Assembly: GCA_020060385.1 (NCBI GenBank)
Contig: JAGVAH010000008.1
Coordinates: 1 to 34,219, forward strand
Source: Syntrophobacterales bacterium
Lineage (GTDB): Bacteria; Desulfobacterota; Desulfobaccia; Desulfobaccales; 0-14-0-80-60-11
Direction of reading: 5' to 3'
Length of the DNA: 34,219 nucleotides
In this document: in pieces, positions 7,990-33,137 of the stretch
Position numbering within the stretch: the first letter of the stretch is position 1
How the letters are laid out: each line of letters opens with the position of its first letter
Program-made: the position numbers and the translations under genes
The notes under the pieces: model-generated
Database searches by the model: none
Seen by the model: the letters and a program-made list of their open reading frames with translations, nothing else
What the model was told of the DNA's origin: nothing

Positions 7990-8028
7990 AGCGGAGGTTG
8001 TTAAAAAAAGCACAAGGAGATAGGGGCC

Positions 8029-8421
8029 TTGGAAATCCCTGAAGCCTTGAGCGACTTTTCCTTCGTTTTGGTCTACCTGGTAGCCGCGGGCCTGTTTGCC
8101 ATGGGGCCCATCATTATCGCCTTCCTGATCGCGCCCAAGAGTTTCGGCGCCACCCGGGACGCGGTTTATGAATGCGGCATGCCCGCCATCGGCAGCGCCT
8201 GGATTCAGGTAGCCGTCATCTACTACCTCTTTGCCTTGCTCTTCCTGGCTTTCGATGTGGACGTGCTCTTCCTCTTACCGGTGTTGCTGGCCTACGGCAA
8301 GGGCTATGTCTGGCGGGACTTCGTGGAAATTACCATCTTCGTAGGCATTCTCTCCCTGGTGATCGTTTATGCCTGGTGCAGGGGGGTTTTCAGTTGGAAG
8401 CGAAAACAGGTGCACCCTTAA
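8029..8421 (+). CDS. nuoA: NADH-quinone oxidoreductase subunit A
   Basis: This 130-residue membrane subunit helps join the hydrophilic arm of complex I to the membrane arm near the quinone site. Three transmembrane helices are evident (about residues 10-38, 63-88 and 93-120). The loop between helices 1 and 2 carries the conserved YECGM motif (residues 47-51). The start is a TTG at 8029 with AAGGAG nine bases upstream. It is the first gene of an eleven-gene operon and overlaps nuoB. Confidence 0.93.
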
Positions 8422-8894
8422 TCCATTTGGGCCTCCTGGAGGAGGCCCTGAATCTGGCCCGGGCCAACTCGCTGTGGCCCATGACCTTCGGCCTGGCTTG
8501 CTGCGCCATTGAGATGATGGCCGCGGGCGCGGCCCGGTTCGATCTGGACCGCTTCGGGGCCGGGGTCTTCCGGCCGTCGCCCCGGCAGTCGGACCTGATG
8601 ATCGTGGCCGGCACCATCTCCAAAAAGATGGCCCCCGCGGTGGTCCGCCTCTGGGAGCAGATGCCCGCGCCCAAGTGGGTGATCGCCATGGGCAACTGCG
8701 CCATCTCCGGCGGTCCCTTTTACTATGAAAACCAGTATGCCATCGTGCCCGGCGCCGATCTGATCATCCCCGTGGACGTCTATGTGCCCGGCTGCCCGCC
8801 CCGGCCCGAGGGGTTGATCGAAGGCATCCTGATGCTGGAAGAAAAGATCACCAAACGGGGCCGGTTAAGGAAGTTCCGCGATGTTGCTAGATAG
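8394..8894 (+). CDS. nuoB: NADH-quinone oxidoreductase subunit B
   Basis: This 166-residue subunit carries the terminal [4Fe-4S] cluster N2, which passes electrons to quinone. The four ligands are visible: the adjacent pair Cys36-Cys37 (ACCAIEMM), Cys102 (MGNC) and Cys134 ([10 protein letters not shown]). The chosen start is a TTG at 8394 inside the end of nuoA, preceded by AGGGGGG. Upstream of it the frame is a shadow of nuoA. A later TTG at 8427 is possible but has no ribosome site. The gene overlaps nuoA by 28 bases and nuoC by 14. Confidence 0.92.
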
Positions 8895-9345
8895 CATCCC
8901 CAAGGCCCTGGCGCCTCTGAACCTGGAAAAGGTGGCCCCCGGGGAATACGCCAAGACGGGCTATCATCTGGAAGTGGCCGCCACGCCGGCGCAGATGCCC
9001 GCCGTGGCCCAGGCCCTGCTCAAGGAAGGCTGCTTGCTGGAGTCCCTCACCGCGGTGGACACGTCCCGGGAGGCCTTCACCCTGGTCTACCATTTCGCCA
9101 ACTTCTACGAACTCTGCCGCACCGTGGTCCACGCCTCCTTGCCCAAGGACGCCGAGGCCCCCACCATCAGCCAGGTCTATCCCGGGGCCGACTGGTACGA
9201 GCGGGAGGTTTACGACCTCTTCGGCATCAAGTTCGCGGGGCATCCCAACCTGAAGCGCCTGCTGCTCCCCGAGGATGCCACCATCCACCCCTTGCGGAAG
9301 GAATTCCCCGAAGAGGCGGAAGTTAAAGGGGAAGCGCCCAAATGA
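8881..9345 (+). CDS. nuoC: NADH-quinone oxidoreductase subunit C
   Basis: This 154-residue 30-kDa-type subunit of the hydrophilic arm carries the family signature [25 protein letters not shown]. It is encoded separately from nuoD, unlike the fused nuoCD of enterobacteria. The start ATG lies within the last codons of nuoB and the stop overlaps the nuoD start (ATGA), which points to tight translational coupling. Confidence 0.94.
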
Positions 9346-22982: not shown

Positions 22983-23252
22983 AGCTCTAAGCGAATTCAG
23001 AAAGGTTCAAGGTTCAAAGTTAACAATAGGTACCGGCGTTTCCCATGAGGATGGAGGTCAAGGAGGTTCCCCAGTACAGGCTTTGGAATTTAGCAATATA
23101 TCCCATAACCTGAATGATTTCCATTAAAGGCGAAGCGCTCAGAAAAAGACAGGTATTTACCCCCCTTTTCTAAAGGGGGGTCAGGGGGGATTTTATCAGC
23201 GCCTGTAAATCCCCCTAAATCCCCCTTTATAAAAGGGGGACTTAAAAGCTCG
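22983..23252. other. intergenic region with short dispersed repeats
   Basis: This 270-base stretch lies upstream of the radical SAM gene. It contains the direct repeats AGGTTCA AGGTTCA (about 23003-23016) and the large inverted repeat at 23157-23246. No protein gene is supported. Confidence 0.6.
23157..23246. repeat. MITE-like inverted repeat with C/G-run arms
   Basis: The left arm starts TTTACCCCCCTTTTCTAAAG and the right arm ends CCCCCTTTATAAAAGGGGG followed by ACTTAAA. The two arms are imperfect reverse complements, each with internal CCCCC...GGGGG palindromes and an AAATCCCCC unit. The centre is about 15 bases. The pattern matches the common non-coding palindromic elements found between genes in many bacteria. 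It sits directly at the 3' end of the DUF429 gene and might serve as its terminator. Confidence 0.75.
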
Positions 23253-23942
23253 TTATTCGGGAGGCCAGTGCAGGACCGGGTGATTATCATCGATAGGAAG
23301 TGGCGTCGGCAAAATAATGCTTCCCAATCCATCACCACCCCCTACTTCACAACCGCTCCCCTGAACATATTCCATAACAGTAGCAGCGGAGACACACGCG
23401 TCTATCATGTCTTTAGGTCCAAATGCAAAATTAGAAAAATTTATACAGATTTCTGGAGATTTTCGATGTTTAAGAAGATTGTAAGATGCAGTTGGAAAAA
23501 CTTCAAACACGGTTTTTCTATCCCCCAAACAAGAAAAAAGAGCAAACCCTAAGATCATCCAATCCGGACAATTTTCCCTAGCACTAGTCCATTGAGGATT
23601 TGCAATATTTAGTGCCTTTAGAACTACCTCACAATGTCTTCCATAGCCTTGCTCGCCGGACCTTCTTGACCTCCACCTTTGTCTTCCTCCATCCCAAAAA
23701 TGTCCCCTTGGACTTTTTAGAGGAAGCCTGGGAGAATCGATACCCACAGCAACGCATCCGATCCTGTTGCCCTCTATCCTGTTAATGATTTGTACTAGAT
23801 GCCGACAAATGCTCTCTGTTGAATTCCCTTCCAACCACCCTTGATCGGTCGATTTATGACTATTATCCAAAACTAAATACGAACACCTTCTTCTTGTTTG
23901 AACATCAACTCCCATAAAGAAGGCGAATTCTTCGCTTTTCAT
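23253..23942 (-). CDS. DUF429 family protein (predicted RNase H-like nuclease)
   Basis: This protein of about 229 residues has the layout of DUF429: an N-terminal beta hairpin with GVDVQTRRRCSYLVLD, a central AVGIDSPRLPL carrying the acidic residue typical of the RNase H-like fold, EVFPTASY in the middle, and a C-terminal DMIDACVSAATVMEYV helix followed by GSIILPTPL. The start is taken at ATG 23942, where the conserved domain begins. The frame is open further up but runs into pth. Fourteen bases separate it from the pth stop. Its A+T content is clearly higher than that of pth and prs, and a repeat lies right at its end, so it may have been inserted here. The biochemical role of the family is not established. 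Confidence 0.75.
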   Translation of the reverse strand: MKSEEFAFFMGVDVQTRRRCSYLVLDNSHKSTDQGWLEGNSTESICRHLVQIINRIEGNRIGCVAVGIDSPRLPLKSPRGHFWDGGRQRWRSRRSGEQGYGRHCEVVLKALNIANPQWTSARENCPDWMILGFALFSCLGDRKTVFEVFPTASYNLLKHRKSPEICINFSNFAFGPKDMIDACVSAATVMEYVQGSGCEVGGGDGLGSIILPTPLPIDDNHPVLHWPPE

Positions 23943-23956
23943 GCTTATCTCATCTT

Positions 23957-24529
23957 CTAATCCGCAGGCGCGCCATGAAACCGATTCTGGGCCGCCGGCA
24001 ACCCTTCCCGGATCAGGCAATCCACCGCCTGGGCCCCCCGCTCCACCAGCCCGGCCGCGGTCTCCTCCTCCTCCCGGGTGAAGGGGGATAACACAAAACT
24101 CTCCCCGGGAATGTTGGGGGGCGGGCGGCCGATGCCCAGTTTCACCCTTAAGAATTCCTCGGTGTCCAGGGCGTTGATTATGGAGAGCACGCCCCTATGC
24201 CCCCCGGGCCCGCCCCGCTCCACGATCTTCAGGCGCCCGCAAGGCACGTCCAGATCGTCGTGAATTACCACCAGGCTATTGGGGGTAAGACGGAAATAGG
24301 TCAGCAGCCGGGAGACCGCCCGGCCGCTCAGGTTCATGAAGGTGGCGGGCTGGGCCAGGACCGCGGTCTCCCCCCCTACCCTGCCCTGGCCCCAGGTGGC
24401 GTCCAGGGTGCTCCTAGTTAAAGGAATCCCCCATTTCTCAGCCAGGGCCGCGACCACCATAAACCCCAGGTTATGCCGGGTCCAGGCGTACTGCGGGCCC
24501 GGATTCCCCAACCCCACCACTAGCCGCAC
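23957..24529 (-). CDS. pth: peptidyl-tRNA hydrolase
   Basis: This 190-residue Pth-family enzyme releases peptides from peptidyl-tRNA dropped by ribosomes. The signature GLGNPGPQY is at 6-14 and the catalytic His19 is in TRHNLGF. QPATFMNLSG provides the substrate-binding Asn, and HDDLDVP the Asp that orients the His. GGPGGHRGVLSI has Arg where Asn is often found, a change seen in other Pth proteins. It lies downstream of prs, but the ribosomal protein bL25 gene usually found between them is absent. Confidence 0.96.
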   Translation of the reverse strand: MRLVVGLGNPGPQYAWTRHNLGFMVVAALAEKWGIPLTRSTLDATWGQGRVGGETAVLAQPATFMNLSGRAVSRLLTYFRLTPNSLVVIHDDLDVPCGRLKIVERGGPGGHRGVLSIINALDTEEFLRVKLGIGRPPPNIPGESFVLSPFTREEEETAAGLVERGAQAVDCLIREGLPAAQNRFHGAPAD

Positions 24530-29966: not shown

Positions 29967-30129
29967 CCTCGCTTCCAGCGCGAGGGGATTTTTCCTCAGA
30001 AGCCATTTCTGGTGGCGCAGGCTTTCCAGCCTGCGCTCCTCTACTCGCGACCAGCGCGAGGGGATTTTACCTTACCCGGCCCAGGTGCGGCCCGGGACCA
30101 ACCTCGCCCCAGAGCGAGGGGATTTCACC
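29967..30129 (-). repeat. three hairpin repeats in the leader of the serine operon
   Basis: Three copies of a 28-29 base unit lie at 29967-29995, 30043-30071 and 30102-30129. On the - strand each reads about AAATCCCCTCGC, GCTGG, then GCGAGG, so each forms a hairpin (CCTCGC with GCGAGG). The stretches between them hold two further palindromes: GCGCAGGCT/AGCCTGCGC at 30015-30036 and a CCCGG...CCGGG unit at about 30075-30097. All lie between the predicted promoter and the aminotransferase start, so they would be transcribed as a chain of stem-loops. Confidence 0.75.
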
Positions 30130-30138
30130 AAAACTAAC

Positions 30139-30177: not shown

Positions 30178-30435
30178 GATTTCTGTCCGGGGATAGTGAA
30201 AAAAAGCACGAACTCTAATCCAATTCTTTGTATCTTGGCGTATGAAAATATCTTGCCTTGAAGAAAAACCTGGCGGGAAAAATGAAACAAACCCTACTTA
30301 CTACCCCTTCTACCTTGGTTCCCATGTTCCTGCTTGGAAATGAGAGGAAACAACTATTTTTTCCAACAAAATTTATGCTATCATACCGTCTGTAATAAAG
30401 TTTTGTGAAATGAATGCGGTGGGGAGGATAATTTA

Positions 30436-31797
30436 ATGAACCATAAAAGTGTAATCATTCCCCTGGAAAGCCTACTGCTGGATATGCAAAATGCTCGACA
30501 CGGCGACATAGATGACCAGAATGGCGTGTTGAAGTGGATGGTCTCTGGAAAAAGCCAAGAAAAAGTTATGAACCTTGCACAGTCAATAGTCACTTATGGT
30601 TTCATACCTTTCCAACCCTTCATAGTTATACCTATAGGGGGCGATGGGAAGGAACTTTATACCGTTGTGGAAGGTAATCGTCGAATTGCAGCCCTCAAGA
30701 TGCTCCGTGATCCAGATAAATGCCCTGAAGAACATGCAAGGAAAAAGTTTCGCAACTTCCAACAAAACCTTCAACACCCACTGCCTCCCCAGGTAGAGTG
30801 TTTTGTTTACCCCGATCTTCAAGCAGCAGCGCCTTTGATAAAACTTCGCCATTCAGGTGAGCAAGGTGGAGCCGGTATTGTCCCTTGGGGAGCTAAGGAA
30901 TCGGAATATTTCGCTAAACGGATTGGGGGACCCGGCCGGTATGAGCCTGCGATGCGGCTCTTAGAGTATGCAACAAAGAAAAGGTTGATCAGCCAAGAAG
31001 AATCCAACCGAATTCCCATTACAAACGTAACTCGTTTGATTAACAGTCCATATGTGCGAAAAAAGATTGGCCTGGATATCACGAAGGGAGAGTTAACCCG
31101 AATTGTAGACCAGGATTATTTCGATAAAGCGGTCAGTGATATGCTACGAGCGCTCACCTCTGTAGATATGACTGTTTCACAACTGAAAAGCATAAGACAA
31201 CGAGAAGACTTTATCGATAAAATGGAGCAAGAGTGGGGGCCCTATGAGGCTAGCGAAAAAGCGCCACTCATTCCAGACGCTCCCGAAGCACGAACTAAGA
31301 AGAGTGAAGAAAAGGCTGATGAAAAGAAGAAAAAGCAAACTTCAAGAGATTCACTGCGCCGTAAGACGGCGATACCAAGCAGCGTAAGCATGAAAATCCA
31401 AAATAAACGGCTACTAAAAATTTTCATTGAATTGAAGGGTATTAATATTGAGGATTATATTAATGCTGCATCAGTGTTAACCAGGGTCTTTATCGAGGGA
31501 TGTATTGACCTGTATTTAGAAAAGAATAATATTCAACTCCCTAAAAATCAGAAATATCTGAAAGATAAAGGGCGGGCAGTAAGGAAGCATCTGATATCGA
31601 CTAATGTAGGAAATACAAGGATAAAGGATGATCTAAAGGGGTTAGAAATATTCTATTCCGATGCATCCAACATCGGATCAGCCAATACTTTCAATGCGAT
31701 AGTACATAATCTTAAATTTTCCCTTACCCCAAGAGAATTAAAGATGAACTGGGACCGACTCGAATCATGCCTGCCTTGGTTCCAGGGTCACATATAG
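30436..31797 (+). CDS. ParB/Srx-domain protein with HEPN-like C-terminal domain
   Basis: In this 453-residue protein, residues 1-about 100 form a ParB/sulfiredoxin-like domain: NARHGD, LAQSIVTYGF, FIVIPIGGDG, then the nucleotide-binding-type box VVEGNRRIAALKML (77-90). A middle helical part follows, then a Lys/Glu linker (about 280-310). The C-terminal 130 residues look like a helical HEPN/DUF4145-like domain, with RVFIEGCIDLYLEKN, NTFNAIVHNLKFSLTPREL and ending LESCLPWF. It is not a chromosome-partition ParB, since it lacks the central DNA-binding HTH and a parA neighbour. It precedes an adenine methyltransferase by 16 bases. Both are A+T-richer than all neighbours, suggesting joint transfer. 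A role in DNA modification, restriction or phage defence is inferred. The HEPN match is tentative. Confidence 0.8.
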   Translation: MNHKSVIIPLESLLLDMQNARHGDIDDQNGVLKWMVSGKSQEKVMNLAQSIVTYGFIPFQPFIVIPIGGDGKELYTVVEGNRRIAALKMLRDPDKCPEEHARKKFRNFQQNLQHPLPPQVECFVYPDLQAAAPLIKLRHSGEQGGAGIVPWGAKESEYFAKRIGGPGRYEPAMRLLEYATKKRLISQEESNRIPITNVTRLINSPYVRKKIGLDITKGELTRIVDQDYFDKAVSDMLRALTSVDMTVSQLKSIRQREDFIDKMEQEWGPYEASEKAPLIPDAPEARTKKSEEKADEKKKKQTSRDSLRRKTAIPSSVSMKIQNKRLLKIFIELKGINIEDYINAASVLTRVFIEGCIDLYLEKNNIQLPKNQKYLKDKGRAVRKHLISTNVGNTRIKDDLKGLEIFYSDASNIGSANTFNAIVHNLKFSLTPRELKMNWDRLESCLPWFQGHI

Positions 31798-31813
31798 GAA
31801 AAGCTGAGACTTA

Positions 31814-32710
31814 ATGGCTTGCGACTTACTCCGGGGGGAGACTATGGCAACGACAGCTACACCATTGCGGTATCCAGGTGGGAAAAGCCGTTTAGCGCGA
31901 TTCTTCAGTTTTTTGCTAAGGCAGAACAAAATCAGTGACTGCATATATATAGAGCCATTTGCCGGCGGAGCAGGTGCCGGAATCAACCTATTGCGGATGG
32001 AGTATGTCCGGCTTCTATACCTTAATGATATTGATACAGGCGTGCATGCTTTTTGGTATTCCCTGCTTTATCACACGGAGGAGCTTTGCCGTATGGTGGA
32101 GGAAGCCCCATTGACGATGGAAGAATGGCATCGGCAAAAGGAGGTTTTGGGCAGTCCAACAGCTTCGCCAATTGATTTAGGATTTGCTGTCCTATTCATG
32201 AATCGGACTAATCGTTCCGGCATCATAACAGGCGGCGTCATCGGAGGGCAGAAGCAAACCGGAAAATGGAAAATTGATGCACGCTTCAACCGCGTTGGAC
32301 TGGTAGAGAAGATAAGAAGGATTGCTGGCTATCGACACCGCATTAAGCTTTTCTGTATGGATGCACGCGATTTTCTCTCCAATGTCGTGGCGGCCTGCCA
32401 GGAGCGAATCTTTATCTATCTTGACCCACCATATTATCGCAAAGGTCGGGAACTTTACGAGAATAACTATGGACACGATGATCATTCGGCACTTGCCCAA
32501 GCCCTCAAAGCGCTTGGGGAAAAACCTTGGGTAGTTTCTTATAATAACGTTCCAGAAATTCGTGAGGTCTATTCTGGTTTGCCCCATCTCACATATGGCA
32601 TCAACTATAGCGCCTCAGAGCGCTACGAAGGAAAGGAGATCATGTTTTTTGGACCTACGATTAAACAACCTCGTTTCAAAAACCCATTAAGCATTAAACA
32701 TTATGCATAA
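31814..32710 (+). CDS. D12-class (Dam-like) N6-adenine DNA methyltransferase
   Basis: This protein of 298 residues or fewer is of the Dam/D12 class. Motif X is TPLRYPGGKSRL (about 16-27), the AdoMet-binding motif I is IEPFAGGAGAGINLL, an acidic NDID follows, and the catalytic motif IV is FIYLDPPYY (about 197-205). The order X-I-IV is that of D12 enzymes. The ATG at 31814 is the longest choice. The ATG at 31844 directly precedes the conserved region and has GGGGGGAG close upstream, so it is equally likely. No partner endonuclease of known type is adjacent. The preceding ParB-like gene is its only neighbour on the strand. The recognition site cannot be deduced. Confidence 0.92.
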   Translation: MACDLLRGETMATTATPLRYPGGKSRLARFFSFLLRQNKISDCIYIEPFAGGAGAGINLLRMEYVRLLYLNDIDTGVHAFWYSLLYHTEELCRMVEEAPLTMEEWHRQKEVLGSPTASPIDLGFAVLFMNRTNRSGIITGGVIGGQKQTGKWKIDARFNRVGLVEKIRRIAGYRHRIKLFCMDARDFLSNVVAACQERIFIYLDPPYYRKGRELYENNYGHDDHSALAQALKALGEKPWVVSYNNVPEIREVYSGLPHLTYGINYSASERYEGKEIMFFGPTIKQPRFKNPLSIKHYA

Positions 32711-33025
32711 GTAGTTTGTAATAAACAGTTTTTATCTTATATTCTCTTCTTCTTTCTATTCCTTCATAATTATCCTAATCCGTGCCGATCATCCCCTCCT
32801 TTCTGGCCTTCTCCCTCTTTTCCTCTAAATTTCCCTGGGGAGCAAAATTTTGGGGGGTGAGGTGGGACCAGGCGCTTTTGGCCTGCTCCGGTCCGGCGGC
32901 CAGGCGGGATTAAGCGGTGCAGCCCCGGCGCCGTGCCGCAACTTAAGCCTGGCTTATCCGGGAAATAAGTGGAAAATAGCGGGGTTATCCCGCCACCCCC
33001 ACCCCGTGCCGGCACAACCTTAGCC

Positions 33026-33081
33026 GCCCCCGGCCCCCCGGCCCCGATCCCTGGCCCCCGGCCCCTGGGCCCCGGCCCCCG
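33026..33081 (-). repeat. G-run cluster with G-quadruplex potential
   Basis: The + strand carries C-runs of 3-6 bases separated by one to four bases (pattern CCCCCGGCCCCCCGG repeating). The - strand therefore has at least four closely spaced runs of GGG or longer and could fold as a G-quadruplex. The sequence is also partly a tandem GGCCCC repeat. Confidence 0.6.
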
Positions 33082-33137
33082 GAGGCGGATTCTGCAATTA
33101 TACAGAGCGTCATATGTATTTACATAATGTTCTTTTT

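Follow-up and report, generated by a model that had tools for sequence, protein, structure and literature searches.

What is encoded by the A+T-rich gene pair that lies between serine genes and repeat-rich DNA in this genome? The window analysed here, 34,219 nucleotides long, is contig C55 in its entirety and comes from an assembly of 4.15 Mb in 175 contigs, in which gene A of the pair occurs in a single copy. An earlier note, made from the sequence alone, had placed two adjacent forward-strand open reading frames at 30436–31797 (gene A, 453 aa) and 31814–32710 (gene B), 16 bases apart, and the positions of both were confirmed. The 16-nt spacing holds for the frames as annotated but not for the likely start of gene B, which is probably at 31844 and not at 31814, because a strong Shine-Dalgarno-like GGGGGGAG (31833–31840, +) precedes that ATG, the match to the PADLOC model of the B protein starts at residue 11, and the alignment to D12 homologues also sets in at about that point. 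With this start, gene B (31844–32710, +) encodes 288 aa instead of 298 aa and the gap to gene A is 46 nt. Gene A is itself preceded by a Shine-Dalgarno-like GGGGAGG (30421–30427, +).

The G+C content of the pair is 44.4%, compared with 54.5–64.7% in equal-length segments of the rest of the contig (n = 558, over positions 1–30135), so that the pair is indeed A+T-richer than its surroundings. A second A+T-rich dip (44.6% G+C) is found at 23001–24000, between a radical SAM/B12 gene and the gene for peptidyl-tRNA hydrolase. The location given in the earlier note was also borne out: to the left, on the reverse strand, are the genes for a SerC-like class-V aminotransferase and D-3-phosphoglycerate dehydrogenase (SerA), and to the right are GC-rich repeats, inverted repeats and a response-regulator gene. 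The GC-rich repeats include a tandem heptamer, GCCCCCG, present in about eight copies at 33026–33082, in the interval that separates the pair from the response-regulator gene. On the other side, just upstream of serC, positions 29968–30130 contain a repeat of 29 nt, CTCGC..CCAGCGCGAGGGGATTTT, that can form a hairpin and is present in three imperfect copies (66–90% identity). Its core is unique to this place in the 4.15 Mb genome, and the repeat may therefore be a local regulatory element.

Both gene products match PADLOC models of a single system. The product of gene A matches PDLC03998 (PD-Lambda-5_A; 3.7e-102, residues 5–445 of 453), and that of the adjoining gene B matches PDLC04018 (PD-Lambda-5_B; 2.2e-112) over nearly its full length; Pfam and NCBIfam name gene B as a D12/Dam-type methylase and leave gene A without a name. 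PD-λ-5 came out of a functional selection in E. coli, and its anti-phage activity has been validated experimentally (Vassallo 2022; PMC9519451). It gives broad phage protection, as shown for the E. coli system, and was judged to be a compacted "RM+Abi" system; it is apparently the sole methylase-bearing system of the 21 described, the paper stating that just one of its putative DNase systems has a methylase (PMC9519451). By these sequence matches, the gene pair is a divergent form of a two-gene anti-phage system, PD-λ-5, that had been described before. The earlier note was thus right to propose a two-gene defence module, and its restriction-plus-abortive logic agrees with the published guess of the PD-λ-5 authors, but the system is not undescribed. 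The pair is a genuine defence module, intact and gained by horizontal transfer, and adds a divergent new member to a known system; what novelty is left lies in the domain reading of effector A and in a clade of A proteins that lacks B. Our literature search, thin on subscription papers and preprints, found no mechanism for PD-λ-5, although a mechanism paper may exist; a system that is validated but mechanistically unsolved in the literature searched is here extended to a distant host.

An enterobacterial relative, used as the query of a DNA-level search, led to relatives in E. coli. In P2-like prophages of this species, the region between the replication endonuclease and portal genes encodes, in the same gene order as here, a 'hypothetical protein' of 501 aa and a 'DNA adenine methylase'. 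With 558 and 403 bits on the same PD-Lambda-5_A and PD-Lambda-5_B models, this prophage pair is probably the founding type of PD-λ-5 and may be the very locus that was cloned. The pair described here has the same two genes, order and domain layout as PD-λ-5, with near-full-length HMM matches, but its identity to the E. coli P2-prophage proteins is only 25% for A and 45% for B. Furthermore, the E. coli type is prophage cargo, whereas the pair in the window is a chromosomal cassette without adjoining phage genes and does not belong to an ordinary prophage replication module. In a second E. coli form (L095), A and B are convergent and follow antiterminator Q of a lambdoid prophage.

Comparison with congeners outlined an inserted segment of 43.4% G+C at approximately 30341–32773: congener DNA matches the window up to 30237–30340 and resumes from 32774–32798. 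In one congener (G004) the site is nearly empty, with the flanks 217 bp apart. In another (G003, L108:2391-4586) the same site upstream of serC holds a gene for a 731-aa protein, with 41.5% G+C and in the same orientation, that has no credible Pfam match and a weak PADLOC match; a GDGGRD...QYS stretch in its N-terminal part reads like a putative PD-(D/E)XK site. A transposase-like open reading frame seems to adjoin the G003 gene. Partial matches to A were found in only two of 58 relatives, the genome of the window itself excluded. The region upstream of serC is therefore a variable site with recently acquired cargo. The only flanking direct repeats found were the 9-nt TGTAATAAA at 30391 and 32717, too short for a convincing target-site duplication. 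A tRNA-targeted island or a known RNA element was likewise rejected, as ARAGORN found no tRNA and Rfam gave a chance match only. The different putative defence gene at the same site in G003, and the isolation of the PD-λ-5 family through its anti-phage activity, speak against an epigenetic or phage-derived regulatory module with no role in defence; phage and prophage copies of the pair do exist, as such a module would lead one to expect, but we consider this explanation extremely improbable.

Gene B encodes, as had been proposed, a complete D12-class N6-adenine DNA methylase. It matches PF02086 (MethyltransfD12) at 3.8e-12, with 46.9 bits against a cut-off of 22, its motif I region is intact, and its DPPY catalytic motif (32423–32434, +) is invariant in 69 sequences; the nearest solved structure is 7m6b (1.2e-14). 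PD-λ-5 was cloned in a host deleted for a region containing mrr (PMC9519451), which fits an active m6A methylase because Mrr attacks some m6A-modified DNA. Together with the intact motifs, this choice of host supports a role for B as a marker of DNA.

The layout of the gene A product comprises a ParB/Srx-type N-terminal domain, a helical middle, a linker and a C-terminal helical domain that is probably HEPN-like. The ParB-type phosphate-binding box noticed earlier, VVEGNRRIAALKML, is encoded at 30664–30705 (+) and was evident in alignments of 74 and 69 sequences; its residues G80, N81, R82 and R83 are invariant in the 74 homologues. An AF2 model, built on the alignment of 69 sequences with rows from annotated records left out, had a pLDDT of 91.8 and a pTM of 0.65. 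The best PDB matches of this model in Foldseek were ParB/Noc structures, several of which contain CTP or CDP, and ATP/ADP-bound sulfiredoxin (probability ~1.00), in agreement with the ParB-like N-terminus of the earlier note. According to the predicted model, the N-terminus of gene A has the ParB/Noc-type NTP-binding (ParB-CTPase-type) fold. The alignment to ParB/Noc extends over ~280 columns and includes the helical middle (residues 153–277), with a high rmsd, which makes the lack of a partition-type HTH stated in the earlier note uncertain. When gene A or its C-terminal domain was compared by sequence with PDB chains, a marginal match to ParB (6ryk, E 0.085) was the sole result, and nothing else was usable. 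Gene A shares the N-terminal fold and the GxRR-type box with ParB/Noc CTPases and sulfiredoxin but differs from the ParB/Noc CTPases in its C-terminal helical domain and in having no ParA partner: no ParA gene is conserved nearby, and B is the only shared neighbour in 89 loci.

The C-terminal helical domain (residues 306–453; 31351–31794, +) was modelled alone in AF2 with a pLDDT of 95.0 and a pTM of 0.89. Its top ten PDB matches in Foldseek were all HEPN proteins (HepT toxins, 1wwp and the PaREP1 protein 2q00), all of them weak (E at least 0.7), the match to 2q00 having an E of 0.88 and TM of 0.51/0.60. DUF4145/DUF5677 were matched weakly by two to three family members. In the alignment of the domain, E332, R350 and H424 are invariant and E354 and P430 near-invariant, and the canonical HEPN motif Rx4-6H is absent, there being no Arg 5–7 residues before H424 and R350 lying on another helix. 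The HEPN-like C-terminus suggested in the earlier note thus stood with regard to the best fold matches, but these are weak and the canonical RNase motif is missing. PaREP1/8 HEPN variants likewise keep the His and lose the Arg of the motif, and have other conserved basic residues (PMC3710099). Given the top Foldseek matches and the occurrence of this variant in the HEPN survey (PMC3710099), the C-terminal domain of A is likely HEPN-like and is possibly active. It resembles PaREP1-type HEPN (2q00) and HepT toxins in its helical bundle, and its E332/R350/H424 set is a candidate site. The same survey listed a HEPN protein, MAE_28990, in an operon with ParB and a DNA methylase, and a ParB-HEPN fusion, Saro_3948 (PMC3710099, Table 1). 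These families, likened here to the pair by their description, contain the same three ingredients and were predicted in 2013, but are reported to have, or mostly have, an active motif (PMC3710099); its canonical form is absent in A. An analogous logic, a modification system with a HEPN-type suicide effector, is seen in PrrC with the Type I RM system PrrI (PMC3710099), although these proteins are unrelated to A and B and combine Type I RM with an ABC-ATPase-HEPN effector.

We lean towards the view that, in this divergent PD-λ-5 cassette, B marks host DNA and A senses and acts through its HEPN-like domain. B would methylate adenine in a specific DNA motif, and A would bind DNA and NTP through its ParB-like N-terminus and stay quiet on the marked DNA. 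Unmarked or disturbed phage DNA would cause A to switch on the C-terminal domain, for RNA cleavage or another toxic act, and the infected cell would be shut down or the phage blocked. While the methylase motifs of B are intact, the sensing by A and its toxic act are what we infer. This would give the effector a concrete anatomy, a ParB-CTPase-type sensor with a HEPN-like domain and an unusual set of conserved residues. The lack of Rx4-6H and the weak HEPN fold matches (E at least 0.7) count against this account, as do the A proteins without B described below. So does the phage range: the strongest protection by PD-λ-5 is against T-even phages, unlike simple restriction of unmethylated sites. 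The DNA of T-even phages is heavily modified.

If the pair were instead a Type II-like RM system, A would cut unmethylated DNA through its ParB/Srx domain or an undetected nuclease site and B would protect the host, with no RNA or abortive step. Some ParB/Srx proteins have been reported to nick DNA and have been linked to endonuclease systems (PMC12839542, PMC3710099), and an intact methylase that is strictly paired with A, whatever the orientation, would suit such a system. However, a Pfam scan of 74 A sequences gave no nuclease family above cut-off, the invariant residues of A are those of the NTP-binding ParB box, and the conserved extra C-terminal domain would be left unexplained. The Pfam matches of gene A to 'RNase_HII' and 'Tom7' were discarded, being below the cut-offs and finding no support among the homologues. 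The lack of a recognisable nuclease in A and the especially strong effect on T-even phages make simple restriction less likely than marking by B and toxic action by A, and we regard it as unlikely.

To see how regularly A and B occur together, we kept the best 80 of 531 relatives of A from a genome scan, a sample biased to close relatives of this A. Among these 80, B lies directly beside A in 67 (gap −104 to +88 nt), so that the pairing is far above chance, as the earlier note had anticipated; of the remaining loci, one ends at a contig edge, one has a broken open reading frame and 11 lack B. Paired loci contain just one B match each, over stretches of up to ~17 kb. Within the best 80, the hosts of the pair include Pseudomonadota, Bacteroidota, Chloroflexota, Bacillota, Actinomycetota, Acidobacteriota, Gemmatimonadota and Nitrospirota, as well as Cyanobacteriota, Thermodesulfobacteriota, Bdellovibrionota and two archaeal groups. 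A scan of viral contigs with gene A alone found no relatives. A Vibrio phage (L009) was rejected as a B-less case because B sits elsewhere in the same record. The pairing survives inversion, with B on the opposite strand in two genomic loci (L012, L014), a phage (L004) and the lambdoid E. coli form, and a search of 89 loci for a conserved third partner gene found none.

The distance matrices of A and B are correlated (r = 0.77; maximum 0.14 in 2000 permutations), which could be obtained from shared ancestry alone but not from independent reassortment. Such correlated divergence is compatible with a physical complex, as in a BREX/DISARM-like system in which B takes an active part in defence and phage DNA is the target of a complex of methylase and effector, A being the subunit that loads onto or senses DNA; the use of a cloning host without the mrr region, which means that methylation probably occurs, also fits. 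Convergent loci, however, separate the transcription of A and B, and a clade of solo A proteins exists, so we consider such a system quite unlikely.

To the 11 B-less loci among the best 80 of 531 (L071, L072, L077, L080, L083-L088 and L091; at ~8001–9300 in most) can be added a plasmid copy and a contig labelled as phage. Their solo A proteins group in a single clade (support 100), in which all members of known taxon are Alphaproteobacteria. In an independent sample of 385 alphaproteobacterial genomes, seven have A, the query genome included, and only one of them, with a distant homologue, has B in the surrounding stretch examined. The B-less proteins keep the family-invariant residues but differ at other positions, with W134 changed to I, P58 mostly to I and P205 to E. 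No close B was found in any of the 11 B-less genomes, which gave two weak Dam-like matches. The existence of this clade means that B is not always needed.

A RAMA-domain CcrM-type methylase is present in all 15 B-less genomes tested (11 of 11, and four more), compared with 133 of 190 in the class, a background confounded by small genomes without CcrM. These data would fit a clade that lost its own methylase and recognises the CcrM mark already present in the host as 'self', without showing it, because paired alphaproteobacterial genomes also carry CcrM; we hold this switch to be very unlikely. If true, it would mean that an effector exchanged its private epigenetic signal for a core one. Whether A depends on DNA methylation for distinguishing self from non-self could be asked cleanly in the B-less clade, the single point of this analysis that looks unreported.

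Other gene arrangements were noticed around the same families. On another contig of congener G003 (C104, L113:6647-8780), a gene for a 373-aa ParB-like protein that has only the PD-Lambda-5_A N-terminal domain is followed by a gene for a 332-aa protein with no Pfam or PADLOC match; these two genes may form another system linked to ParB. Eight loci have an AAA ATPase of the AAA_15/AAA_21 type near A. In Citrobacter phage phiNP (L092:2122-4840), an AAA_15/AAA_21 ATPase takes the place of A immediately upstream of a PD-Lambda-5_B-type methylase (6.5e-122). The PADLOC model PDC-M38A is matched by this ATPase as well as by a ParB-like protein, a hint of ParB-AAA systems with the methylase in common.
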